Of a stretch of DNA of 36,760 nt, positions 29,159 to 36,760 are shown piece after piece. The notes beneath the pieces are model-generated. The model had not been told where the DNA came from, ran no database searches, and saw only the letters and a program-made list of their open reading frames with translations. The stretch spans positions 1 through 36,760 of the forward strand of contig JAUXAG010000023.1 of NCBI GenBank assembly GCA_030614915.1, read 5' to 3'. How positions within the stretch are numbered: position 1 is the first letter of the stretch; each line of letters opens with the position of its first letter. The DNA is from Actinomycetes bacterium (GTDB lineage: Bacteria; Planctomycetota; Phycisphaerae; JAACET01). Made by a program: the position numbers and the translations under genes.

Positions 29159-29922
29159 TCCTTGGTCCCCCGCTGCATCTGCCGCAGCGAAAGCTCGATG
29201 CCCATCAGGGTCAGGTCCGGCACGTAAGCCTGGATGAAACCGCATTCGGCGCAGATGAGTTCGCCGTCGCCGCCGGTAACAATGGTTGTCGGCCAGGCCC
29301 TGAGCTCGGTGGCGTAGCGCTCGACGAGCTCGCGGATGGCCCCCACGGCCCCGTAGTATATGCCGGCTAGGATGGCCTGGGAGGTATCCTTGCCGTAGAC
29401 CCAGTCCGGACGGTCTATTTTCACCTCGGGCAGCAGTGTGGTCTGCTCATGAAGAATGCGGGCCGAGAGCGCCAAGCCGGGCAGTATGGCCCCGCCGAGA
29501 AAGACCCCCTCGGGTGAGACACAATCAACAGTAATGGCCGTGCCGGCGTCAACTACGGCTACGGCGTCGGCGATTCGCTCGTAAGCAGCAGCGGCATTGA
29601 GGATGCGGTCCACGCCGACCTTTTCCGGGGCCGGCAGGTCCACTTTCATGGGCAAAGGTACCTCCTGGCCCACGGTCAGGACCTTCATGCCCACGTCCTG
29701 GGCCAATACCTCTTGCAGCAGGCGGTAGACGGGTGGATTGACACTGGCCAAAACGGCGGGGTTATTCCCGCCGGCGGCCATCTCGCCCCATACCTGGGCC
29801 GTCTCGATCAGCTCAGCCTGATTGTTGCTGAGCTGATGACGCTCGCCGCGGGTGAGTCGGCCATTCTCAAATATGCCGAAGGCCACTCGCGAATTGCCCA
29901 CATTTACCACCAGCATTTTCAT
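29155..29922 (-). CDS. coaX: Type III pantothenate kinase
   Basis: A 255-residue kinase of the CoaX family (ASKHA fold), catalysing the first step of coenzyme A synthesis. Visible family motifs are the N-terminal nucleotide loop VVNVGNSRVAFG, the GVDRILNAAAAYE loop, the central DAGTAITVDCV and GGAILPGLALSARIL, and the later VTGGDGEL. The N-terminal motif is usually D-x-G-N-T, and here the Asp is Asn (residue 7), while the second Asp in DAGT is kept. ATG 29922 overlaps the Obg stop by one base (TGATG); a TTG at 29925 would add one residue. It overlaps mnmE-like by four bases, so the three genes form one operon. Confidence 0.93.
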   Translation of the reverse strand: MKMLVVNVGNSRVAFGIFENGRLTRGERHQLSNNQAELIETAQVWGEMAAGGNNPAVLASVNPPVYRLLQEVLAQDVGMKVLTVGQEVPLPMKVDLPAPEKVGVDRILNAAAAYERIADAVAVVDAGTAITVDCVSPEGVFLGGAILPGLALSARILHEQTTLLPEVKIDRPDWVYGKDTSQAILAGIYYGAVGAIRELVERYATELRAWPTTIVTGGDGELICAECGFIQAYVPDLTLMGIELSLRQMQRGTKE

Positions 29923-30935
29923 CAAGCGTCTCCCAGGTCTTCATCCGGCAATTGGGCGAGCTTGGCCCACAAGGCCTCGGTCAACTCTCGTAGATTGGTG
30001 CCGACCACGGCTGAGATGCCGATCACCTCGGTCTTGAGATTGTCCCGCAGCTTGGTCAAGGCCTCCTCAGAGCCGGTCAGGTCCATCTTGTTGGCTACGA
30101 TCAGTTCCGGCTTGGCGGCGAGCTTGGGGCTGTAGGCGGTGAGCTCCTGACGAATGGTCCGATAATTCTCGGCTGGGTCCGCTTCTCCCGGCGGACAGAT
30201 ATCCAGCAGCTGTACGATTATCCTCGTCCGCTCGATGTGTCGCAAGAAGGCTTCGCCCAGGCCCAGTCCCTCATGGGCGCCTTCAATCAGGCCCGGCAAG
30301 TCGGCCATGACCATCCGACGGTAATCGCTCAGCTCCACGATCCCCAACTGGGGATTCAAGGTGGTAAAGGCGTAGGCGGCGATCTTCGGGCGGGCGGCTG
30401 ACAGTCGACTCAAGAGTGTGCTCTTGCCGGCGTTGGGCATGCCCACCAGGCCGATATCGGCGATGAGCTTGAGCTCCAATTTCAACCAGCGCCGGCGGCC
30501 CTCGGTTCCCGGCTGAGTGATACGCGGGGCCTGCTCGGTGGCTGTAGCAAATGCAGCGTTGCCCTTGCCTCCCTTGCCGCCTTCGGCTACGCAAATCCGC
30601 TGTCCGGGCTTGGTCAAATCCTGTAAGAGCAGGCCCAGGTCTCGGTCATATACCAACGTTCCAGCGGGTACGCGGATAACGATGTCCTTGCCCTTTTTGC
30701 CGGTCATGTTTTTGCCCTTGCCGTGACCGCCGCCCTTGGCCCGCCAGTGATGTCTGCCGGCTATGTCCGAAAGGGTATCCAGACCTTCGACGGCTTCGAG
30801 GTAAACGCTGCCACCGTGGCCACCGTCGCCGCCGTCGGGACCACCGCGAGGGACGAAGCGCTCCCTCCGGAAGCTCAGGCATCCATGGCCTCCGTCACCG
30901 CCCTGTACGAATATTTCGACTTCATCGACAAACAT
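29922..30935 (-). CDS. obg: Obg GTPase (CgtA/ObgE)
   Basis: A 337-residue GTPase that acts in ribosome large-subunit maturation and stress signalling. The Obg fold is recognised by its Gly-rich repeats: VQGGDGGHGCLSFRRERFVP, GGPDGGDGGHGGSVYL, and GGGHGKGKNMTGKKGKD. The G domain follows with G1 GMPNAGKST at residues 165-173, G2 YAFTTLNPQ, G3 ADLPGLIEGA and G4 IVANKMDLTG. The C-terminal TGS-like extension of some Obg proteins is absent; the chain ends soon after the G domain, which is normal for many species. The start at ATG 30935 gives the canonical MFVDEVEIFV. Normally obg follows rpmA directly, but here a two-gene module and repeats intervene. It is co-transcribed with coaX and mnmE-like. 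Confidence 0.96.
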   Translation of the reverse strand: MFVDEVEIFVQGGDGGHGCLSFRRERFVPRGGPDGGDGGHGGSVYLEAVEGLDTLSDIAGRHHWRAKGGGHGKGKNMTGKKGKDIVIRVPAGTLVYDRDLGLLLQDLTKPGQRICVAEGGKGGKGNAAFATATEQAPRITQPGTEGRRRWLKLELKLIADIGLVGMPNAGKSTLLSRLSAARPKIAAYAFTTLNPQLGIVELSDYRRMVMADLPGLIEGAHEGLGLGEAFLRHIERTRIIVQLLDICPPGEADPAENYRTIRQELTAYSPKLAAKPELIVANKMDLTGSEEALTKLRDNLKTEVIGISAVVGTNLRELTEALWAKLAQLPDEDLGDA

Positions 30936-31011
30936 TGCCCAGTCCCATCGGGGATAGTACCGGCGGTCTTCATCAATTATTTCTGCCGTGTGCGGATTTT
31001 TTGCGGCTGAG

Positions 31012-31575
31012 CTACTGTTCCAAACGGTCCGAAATGGCCTTCCATATGGACTCCAATCCCAGTTTTACGGCCCAGTCGGTAATGTAGTCCCTATCAACCT
31101 TCGAGCCGCTGATTTTCAATACGCCGCTGATATCGCGGAGGTGCTTTTCTGAACCACCCTCACGGTAATACTCCATTTTTTTGATGATCACATCCTCGGC
31201 AGATGCAAACGAGGCCTCATAATCCTCTGCCGGTCTAAAGCGCTCGGCCCGAGCAAAACGGCAGCGATTGAAAGGTGTATCTTGCGGGATTATGACATCA
31301 ATTTTCAAACCAGACGAAGGATGAATGATGTTGAACTGAGCTTGCTGTTGCACAGCCACTCGAACAGCTTCTTCGCTGAGGTAGAAATCCGGGGCTGGAA
31401 ATGCTCGGCAAAACTCGGCAATTTGCTCCGTCCCCAGATCAATGACTATGTCAATGTCATTAGTGAATCTGGGCTCGCCAAAGAAAATTGTGGCTACCGA
31501 CCCGGTCACCATATAGCTCAGCCCCAGCCTCTCGATTGCTGCTACCACATAGCGTAGCAGCTCAGAGTGCTCCAT
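31012..31575 (-). CDS. Nucleotidyltransferase-fold protein
   Basis: A 187-residue protein of the DNA-polymerase-beta-like nucleotidyltransferase superfamily. The motif YMVTGSVATIFFGEPRFTND carries Gly25-Ser26 and is followed by IDIVIDL, giving the first two catalytic acids Asp40 and Asp42; a third Asp93 is in LKIDVIIP. The arrangement suits a nucleotide-transferring enzyme. Similar small proteins (MNT/AbiEii-like) serve in toxin-antitoxin or phage-defence pairs, while others modify small molecules. The start ATG 31575 has GGAGG seven bases upstream and lies inside the 3' end of the preceding small gene (14-base overlap), so the two are translationally coupled. It interrupts the usual rpmA-obg linkage. 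Confidence 0.8.
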   Translation of the reverse strand: MEHSELLRYVVAAIERLGLSYMVTGSVATIFFGEPRFTNDIDIVIDLGTEQIAEFCRAFPAPDFYLSEEAVRVAVQQQAQFNIIHPSSGLKIDVIIPQDTPFNRCRFARAERFRPAEDYEASFASAEDVIIKKMEYYREGGSEKHLRDISGVLKISGSKVDRDYITDWAVKLGLESIWKAISDRLEQ

Positions 31576-31777
31576 GGGATAACCTCCGGGCAGTTTCTGC
31601 GTTGACTTTTTGCTCGTTCCAGTCGGGGTGTTGGCTGCGGAGCATATTGATAATCATTTGCCGGGCAGAGGAAAACATTTCACTGGCGATCTGCAAGCGC
31701 TCAGCTCCAGTTTTGAGCCGAAGCACTTGAGCCATTTTATCGTCTACGACCTCAATCTGTTGCTTATCCAAGTGCAT
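31562..31777 (-). CDS. Small conserved-type protein paired with the nucleotidyltransferase
   Basis: A 71-residue, mostly helical, charged protein that ends with the coupled start of the nucleotidyltransferase gene. The middle reads KTGAERLQIASEMFSSARQM and the end HPDWNEQKVNAETARRLSHG, a pattern (AR-x-M...HPDW...V-x-x-E-x-A-R-R-x-S-H-G) that recurs in small planctomycete proteins next to nucleotidyltransferases, as far as can be recalled. No established function is known. The RBS AGGG lies six bases before ATG 31777. Together the two genes resemble a two-component module such as a toxin-antitoxin pair, in which this small protein would be the partner, but it is not recognisably HEPN. Confidence 0.62.
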   Translation of the reverse strand: MHLDKQQIEVVDDKMAQVLRLKTGAERLQIASEMFSSARQMIINMLRSQHPDWNEQKVNAETARRLSHGAL

Positions 31778-31918
31778 CGTGCCCTCATAGTCACTTTCAC
31801 ATCCGCTTGGTTGATTATATCAACAACGTGTTTTCGGAGCAATCCATCTTGCTGCTGGGGATGCATTAATACTACAACGCCACTTAAGGTGTTTTTGCCA
31901 AATTCGCGTGTTCGAAGG

Positions 31919-32185
31919 CCCCCCAGGACGCTCGTGCTTCGCAGCGCTTCGCAGAGTAGTACAGCCTGGGGGCGTTGAAAGAAAGCCACAGGGTGAAGGA
32001 AGGCACAAAGTAAGAAAAGAAACCCCCAGGATAAACCTGGGGGCTAAATATAAGATGGATCCGGAGCCTGCGCGGGGATGACAACAAGGATAAAGCCGGG
32101 GACTAAATATGGGGCCTGAGAGCCTGATTCGGCGACACGAAGTGTCCTTCCTGTAGGGACCTGTGGTTGGAAACCTTAATGCAGC
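31919..32185. repeat. Composite repeat array behind rpmA
   Basis: In order: a loose CCCCCCAGG...CCTGGGGG pair (31919-31927 and 31965-31972) with about 37 bases between the arms; the phrase GAAGGAAGGCACAAAG; a CCCCCAGG hairpin at 32023-32043; then CTAAATATAAGATGGATCC and a 58-base-type unit; the ATGGGGCCTGAGAGCCTGATT phrase; and the hairpin pair GACAC-GAA-GTGTC and TCC-TGTA-GGA-type repeat (32122-32183), near identical to 13743-13802. It fills the 425-base gap 31778-32202 together with a 140-base stretch in which nothing reliable was recognised. No gene is supported. Confidence 0.7.
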
Positions 32186-32202
32186 GTGCTGCTGGTTGGT
32201 TG

Positions 32203-32436
32203 TTACTCTACGCAGACCCGGCGTCCGCGGAACTGGACCGTGCCGGCTGCCATGGCGAAGAGAGTATTATCCCGGCCAATACCGACGTTGGCCCCGGGGT
32301 GAAACTTGGTGCCCCGCTGGCGGATGATGATACAGCCAGGGGTAACTTTCTGGCCACCATAAATCTTCACGCCCAAAAACTGGGCATTGCTGTCGCGCCC
32401 GTTGCGAGTCGAGCCTTGTCCTTTTTTATGTGCCAT
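32203..32436 (-). CDS. rpmA: 50S ribosomal protein L27
   Basis: A 77-residue ribosomal protein with the complete L27 signature: [20 protein letters not shown], then [14 protein letters not shown] and [33 protein letters not shown]. The ending GRRVCVE is a few residues shorter than the usual 84-87-residue protein. The mature N-terminus reaches the peptidyl-transferase centre; there is no processing leader. RBS GAGGGA lies just before ATG 32436. It follows an unrelated secreted-protein gene by 22 bases rather than rplU (L21), which is not in this window, and it is separated from obg by 1.3 kb of repeat and module DNA. Confidence 0.95.
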
Positions 32437-32458: not shown

Positions 32459-33073
32459 CTAACGCATGATCCATTCTTCGTCTTTTAGCTCGGCAGTCAG
32501 CTCGGCGCTGCTGAAACGATCGCCTCCCAGGGCGTAAGTCAACTGGAGGGTTTTGACCAAAGGGTGCTTCTGAGAGGTCATGGGATCCGTGGCCCAGGCG
32601 GTTTCGCCACTGAGGCCCGAAATAAACAACTTGAAGGATATGGCCCTGGGGTCGAAATCCCTTAGTATTATAACACTTTCGCGGGCGTTTTCCTCACCTT
32701 GGAGAAGTCTGCCGCGGACGAAGAGTTCCTCTTCGAGTAGTTCTCGGCCGAGGAGCTCGGCGATATCGGGATAGGCCAAGGGGTCCACGCCCTGGGGGGC
32801 CTGGAAAAGTTGGCCGGTATCGGTGAACAGATGACAGCGAGGGTAGAAATCCACATCCCGTCCGGTATTGTTGGTTACCGTATAAGGCAAGTACCAGAAG
32901 GTTTGAATCTTATCAGCTGGCCTGGATAAGCGGACCATCTTGAGGGGCCCGAATTTGAAATCCAACTGCCAGTTCCGCGGGGAAGGACCCGGGCGAGGAT
33001 AGCCCCAAGCCGCCACCGAGGCCAGCATAGCCAGCCCAGCCACCGCTGTGAGTATTGCAGCTCTTTTAGTCAT
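32459..33073 (-). CDS. Exported protein of unknown function
   Basis: A 204-residue protein with a signal peptide ([21 protein letters not shown], likely cut near AWG). No known family was recognised. The body has a beta-rich pattern: [75 protein letters not shown] and a final [15 protein letters not shown]. This resembles planctomycete periplasmic proteins with a single beta-sandwich, which remain uncharacterised. The frame runs upstream to 33136, but ATG 33073 has GGAGAG as ribosome-binding site and begins the signal peptide, so it was chosen. rpmA follows after 22 bases on the same strand, suggesting co-transcription. Confidence 0.75.
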
Positions 33074-33248
33074 AGTTGGCTCTCCGTCGGCTAATTCCGC
33101 TGGGCTCCGGGGCCTACAATCAACTGAGTTTATCATCGGCTAACTTGGCTGTCAAGGGCCAATCCAGGCGAGAGCGGGCAAAAAACCGTACGTATCTATT
33201 GTCGAAGCAGAAGTTTACCCTTGATAGGCCAGCAAAAAACAGATACTT

Positions 33249-36479: not shown

Positions 36480-36760
36480 AGAAATTAGCCACAGATGAAC
36501 ACAGATTACACAGATAAGAAAACAAAGAGATTTAGCCTCAGATGAAGAAAGGGAAAGAGGGGCAACGCATAGCGTCCTTCCCGTAGGGACCTGTGGTCGG
36601 AAACCCGGGGAAGCAAAGAAACCCCCGGTAAAACCGGGGGCTAAATATAAGATGGATCCCTGCCTGCGCAGGGATGACAGCAAGGATAAACCTGGGGGCT
36701 AAATATAAGATGGATCCGGAGCCTGCGCAGGGATGACAGCAAGGATAAACCTGGGGGCTA
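36480..36760. repeat. Repeat array at the window's right end with 58-59-bp tandem units
   Basis: Starts with GCCACAGATGAACACAGATT (36488-36507) and ACACAGAT, a widespread repeat phrase. Then CGTCCTTCCCGTAGGGACC (36571-36589, as in the repeat at 13743-13802). A CCCCCGGT/ACCGGGGG hairpin follows at 36622-36640. From 36641 two tandem units follow (36641-36698 and 36699-36757), each starting CTAAATATAAGATGGATCC, including CTGCGCAGGGATGACAGC and ending AAACCTGGGGG. A third unit begins at 36758 and runs off the edge. The gap 36407-36479 between the lipoprotein gene and this array shows a GGTTCA/TGAACC stem at 36409-36429 and nothing more. Confidence 0.8.

Follow-up and report, generated by a model that had tools for sequence, protein, structure and literature searches.

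What kind of system occupies the interval between rpmA and obg in the window, the whole 36,760-nucleotide stretch of DNA from an uncultured planctomycete analysed here? Pfam matches place rpmA (32203-32436, minus strand; PF01016, Ribosomal_L27) and obg (29922-30935, minus strand; PF01018) on either side of two minus-strand genes, both with ATG starts, that encode a 71-residue helical protein (31562-31777) and a 187-residue nucleotidyltransferase (31012-31575). The two genes overlap by 14 bases (31562-31575), and the open reading frames, flanking Pfam matches and structural model agree with the first-pass annotation in each of these respects. That annotation considered the pair a possible undescribed two-gene system with an MNT-type enzyme. 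We conclude that it is very probably a chromosomal toxin-antitoxin operon of the MenAT1 type, in which the nucleotidyltransferase is the predicted toxin and its helical partner the predicted antitoxin, because the small protein matches PF18993, the nucleotidyltransferase matches MenT1 structurally and a broad profile of the small partners matches MenA1.

In the window, about 1270 bases separate rpmA from obg, against 196 and 87 bases in two same-genus genomes, whose Obg proteins are 91% and 80% identical to that of the window; the pair is absent between rpmA and obg in both. Alignment with locus L057 delimits an inserted segment at approximately 30942-32186, taking as reference the rpmA-obg junction in the sister genome G392, and the flanks of the segment are 93% and 89% identical to sequence without the pair; a repeat-like block inside the segment (32052-32083) also matches G392. 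The wider junction in the window and the empty junction in two same-genus genomes indicate that the cassette was probably inserted, and recently, in the window's lineage; loss of the pair from both sister genomes would be a less simple alternative. The pair is single-copy in its own genome. In a tree of the nucleotidyltransferases, the window's protein groups with Phycisphaerae sequences (support 98/96), so that the sequences give no sign of a recent transfer from another phylum. A search for a viral or phage origin or homologue of the pair found none, and identity to six plasmid homologues is no higher than about 35%. On the other side of rpmA, an adjoining 225-residue open reading frame (32459-33136, minus strand) matches no Pfam model and has what looks like a signal region at its N terminus.

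A short palindrome about 33 nt before the antitoxin ATG, GTTGATATAATCAAC (31810-31824, minus strand), contains a perfect TATAAT and is a possible promoter or operator; a two-hexamer promoter scan did not report it, and we dropped it as a family operator since it is not conserved in other loci. The repeats that had been counted as part of the locus are real, and lie upstream of the pair at 31918-32160, but they match about 80 places in the genome and stand outside the module; as genome-wide elements, they were also discarded as recombination arms. Their matches to Rfam are weak and below threshold (anti-hemB, 28.6 bits against a gathering value of 49.5). At least two dispersed repeat families occur, at 31918-31977, 32012-32160 and 36631-36760, with CCCCCAGG...CCTGGGGG hairpins, and they partly form 59-bp tandem arrays. 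Such arrays end the window's contig (C30) and begin another (C7), and so they probably break the assembly.

The identity of the small protein follows from its family. It matches the Pfam model PF18993, 'Rv0078B-related antitoxin', at 43.6 bits (cut-off 27.1, E 2.9e-11), and the same model is matched by the small protein in 23 of 23 relatives. PF18993 is named after MenA1 (Rv0078B) of the Mycobacterium tuberculosis MenAT1 system, and the partner therefore belongs to a recognised antitoxin family and not to an undescribed one. A PDB search with a narrow profile of the small protein missed MenA1, and the antitoxin link consequently rests on PF18993 together with the broader profile, built from small partners that were picked by PF18993 and sampled across that family, the window's included, which matches MenA1 (8an5_C) with an E-value of 6.3e-08. 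The predicted structure (mean pLDDT 88) has three helices (residues 13-20, 24-49 and 55-66) and superposes on 8an5_C over 46 columns (rmsd 2.0, TM 0.73 by target); the corresponding Foldseek E-value of 2.3 is uninformative by itself. With 71 residues, three helices and PF18993 as its sole match, the protein has no winged helix-turn-helix domain. NCBIfam and PADLOC return no match for either protein of the pair.

The contacts that MenA1 makes with its toxin are largely replaced. The MenA1 residues L14, V19, R27 and W47 correspond to S32, S37, M45 and R65 and are not conserved, while L12 corresponds to I30 and is the sole one of the five kept hydrophobic; these residues are one member's contacts and not a defining trait of the PF18993 family. 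The antitoxins of the window's clade also carry about 20 extra N-terminal residues that MenA1 lacks. From these replacements and the added residues, we infer that the details of antitoxin-toxin contact probably differ from those of MenAT1. On the toxin side, E34 and F37 keep the MenT1 interface residues E35 and F38, and the contact made by MenT1 F28 is not conserved (V27).

The nucleotidyltransferase is homologous to MenT1, although its full-length identity is about 18%. With its AlphaFold model (mean pLDDT 91) as query, the top five Foldseek matches in the PDB are all MenT1 or MenAT1 entries (E 6.7e-08 to 1.6e-06, TM at most 0.66), and a family profile also finds MenT1 first (8an4, E 2.4e-06). 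Profile alignment to the MenT1-like nucleotidyltransferases of planctomycetes gives 2.3e-09 in hhalign, with T38, D40, D42, D93 and K133 aligned to T39, D41, D43, D98 and K137 of MenT1. The active-site motif E34-P-R-F-T-N-D-I-D42 (31450-31476, minus strand; family alignment, 8an4 and hhalign) has EPRFTRDVD as its MenT1 counterpart, in which the phospho-acceptor T39 matches T38 and the DxD residues D41 and D43 match D40 and D42. The Gly-Ser (G25-S26) and three catalytic aspartates (D40, D42, D93) reported at first pass are intact; D93, D42, T38, G25 and K132/K133 are invariant across 23 homologues, and D40 nearly so. D148, also invariant in the 23, lies 15 residues from K133, as D152 does in MenT1, a match of spacing that falls outside the scored alignment. 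MenT1 toxicity requires D41, K137 and D152, and the antitoxin controls phosphorylation of T39 (PMC10435456, PMC11375011).

The same fold could act on something other than tRNA, such as a different RNA, a protein or, in the manner of ANT or Lnu enzymes, a small molecule, perhaps in an AbiE-like phage defence. The enzymes ANT(2'') and LnuA are also among the Foldseek neighbours, among Pfam models AbiEii (PF08843) fits the toxin best, though weakly (AbiEii and its relatives all score under their cut-offs), and the clade's substrate-side residues (QFNIIHP, EKHLRDI) are unlike those of MenT1-type nucleotidyltransferases. We consider this reading unlikely, while giving it real weight, as the closest structure is MenT1 itself and neither the PADLOC search nor that for viral and phage homologues points to defence.

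The two genes also keep together in related genomes. In the GTDB genome collection, a scan turned up 23 relatives of 53-72% identity in about ten phyla (Planctomycetota, Nitrospirota, Myxococcota, Thermodesulfobacteriota, Pseudomonadota, Acidobacteriota, Bacillota, Elusimicrobiota and others). Wherever the 5' end is complete, the small gene lies directly upstream with an overlap of exactly 14 bases (22/22), which bears out the proposal of a conserved, translationally coupled, toxin-antitoxin-like module; where loci were checked, the stops reported within some relatives are terminal ones. A profile of the nucleotidyltransferase finds it in 94 of 392 planctomycete genomes, and among the best 29 new planctomycete loci the partner is adjacent in all 29 (27 upstream, two downstream), 16 of them with the same 14-base overlap. 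More distant nucleotidyltransferases have an adjacent partner by profile in 17 of 20 cases (E <= 0.01, computed against a small local set of open reading frames). Collecting homologous pairs, as the first-pass annotation had suggested, thus yielded decisively the opposite of homologues that always occur alone, and there is no lone nucleotidyltransferase among the best-scoring ones. The two proteins have correlated distance matrices, as is usual for linked genes (r=0.83; 0/2000 permutations), and this correlation and the shared overlap in 22/22 relatives indicate that the pairing exceeds chance.

The converse case does occur. PF18993 proteins without an adjacent nucleotidyltransferase, for example at L032, L038, L044 and L048, are possible orphan antitoxins, two of them ending in a RLSHGAT or RLSHGTT tail, and a small protein that occurs without its enzyme is the pattern expected of antitoxins. 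Well past the PF18993 cut-off, MenA1-like small partners adjoin further nucleotidyltransferases (L119-L138), suggesting a larger toxin-antitoxin superfamily; the gene order is reversed at L123, L134, L115 and L117.

How is the second gene translated? The antitoxin ends in RRLSHGA(L/V)-stop (RRLSHGAL in the window), and its Arg-Arg codons, CGG AGG, double as the toxin's Shine-Dalgarno sequence, CGGAGG (31583-31588, minus strand), 7 nt before a toxin ATG that lies within the His-Gly codons. In the 39 loci that share the 14-base overlap, the arginine at the Shine-Dalgarno position is an AGR codon in 33 of 38 instances, against 34 of 223 elsewhere in the same reading frames; the Fisher p-value of 4e-18 is optimistic since the loci are related, and the synonymous bias is large. 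Translational coupling of antitoxin and toxin is well supported, and the overlap, judged by its codon usage, is under codon-level selection. Given the synonymous bias at the embedded site, conservation of the tail may owe more to constraint on its nucleotides than to protein function; the C-terminal part of MenA1 is dispensable under overexpression (PMC10435456). The consulted parts of PMC10435456 and PMC11375011 make no mention of a constant 14-base overlap, and what is new here is a clade that combines this overlap with the antitoxin's N-terminal extension.

These features also bear on whether the pair has decayed or been domesticated, its toxicity lost and the genes kept as a neutral insertion. 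It was inserted into a housekeeping operon, and relatives exist in which the first catalytic aspartate, D40, is replaced by Ala (TNAID in L010, 1006-1587) or Gly (TNGVD in L102); these toxins may be inactive, although an antitoxin still accompanies them. In the window, however, both frames are open, the active site is intact and the overlap and Shine-Dalgarno sequence are preserved, which makes decay improbable. In HEPN-MNT systems the nucleotidyltransferase is the antitoxin, and in MenAT systems it is the toxin. The first-pass lead of a HEPN-MNT-like type VII system, also an operon of a nucleotidyltransferase and a small helical partner, in which the enzyme would nucleotidylate a toxic small protein, is highly improbable: the partner matches PF18993, has no HEPN match in Pfam (as had been noted) and, on inspection, no R-x4-6-H motif (R47-x2-H50 and R64-x3-H68 only), the enzyme is nearest to MenT1 by fold and of MenT and not MNT type, with the roles reversed, and the planctomycete orphans are small proteins without an adjacent nucleotidyltransferase, as for an antitoxin.

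For a MenAT1-type operon, a mechanism can be proposed by analogy, with the MenAT1 biochemistry (PMC10435456, PMC11375011) as comparison. The helical protein would be made first, from the same message as the nucleotidyltransferase. Toxin translation would begin at the ribosome binding site buried in the last antitoxin codons, and because of that position the toxin should need ongoing antitoxin translation and be made only while it lasts. The nucleotidyltransferase would add nucleotides, cytidines in the case of MenT1, to the 3' CCA end of tRNA, and translation would stop and growth be blocked. The antitoxin's long helix (residues 24-49) would bind the toxin and occlude its active site, and the antitoxin may also promote phosphorylation of T38.

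MenAT1 (Rv0078B-Rv0078A; PDB 8AN4, 8AN5, 8RR5) is the closest known system. It shares the order of antitoxin then toxin, the nucleotidyltransferase fold with its EPRFT-x-D-x-D motif, lysine and third aspartate, and an antitoxin that is likewise small and helical, belongs to the same Pfam family and lacks a DNA-binding domain. It differs in toxin length (about 196 residues), in several interface residues and in an antitoxin that lacks the extra N-terminal residues and the RRLSHGA(L/V) terminus; in several MenT1-like loci from planctomycetes, the overlap is 4 bases, against 14 here. The AbiE, MenAT3 and MenAT4 systems likewise have a toxin of the DUF1814/AbiEii nucleotidyltransferase superfamily, but pair it with larger COG5340-type antitoxins that carry a winged helix-turn-helix DNA-binding domain.

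More tentatively, and as a joint proposal that we regard as possible though doubtful, a very large group of small nucleotidyltransferases in some ten phyla, most of them unannotated, may have MenA1-like helices as their standard partner, and the window's clade may neutralise its toxin in another way than MenAT1 does, through the antitoxin's own N-terminal segment (residues 1-22), with the dose set by the overlap-embedded ribosome binding site instead of by transcriptional control. For specialists, these loci are a useful extension of MenAT1 and no surprise. They carry an experimentally characterised system far past the mycobacteria, into Planctomycetota, Nitrospirota, Myxococcota, Elusimicrobiota and others, and their divergent pairs form a natural set in which to ask whether antitoxin-induced autophosphorylation is general.
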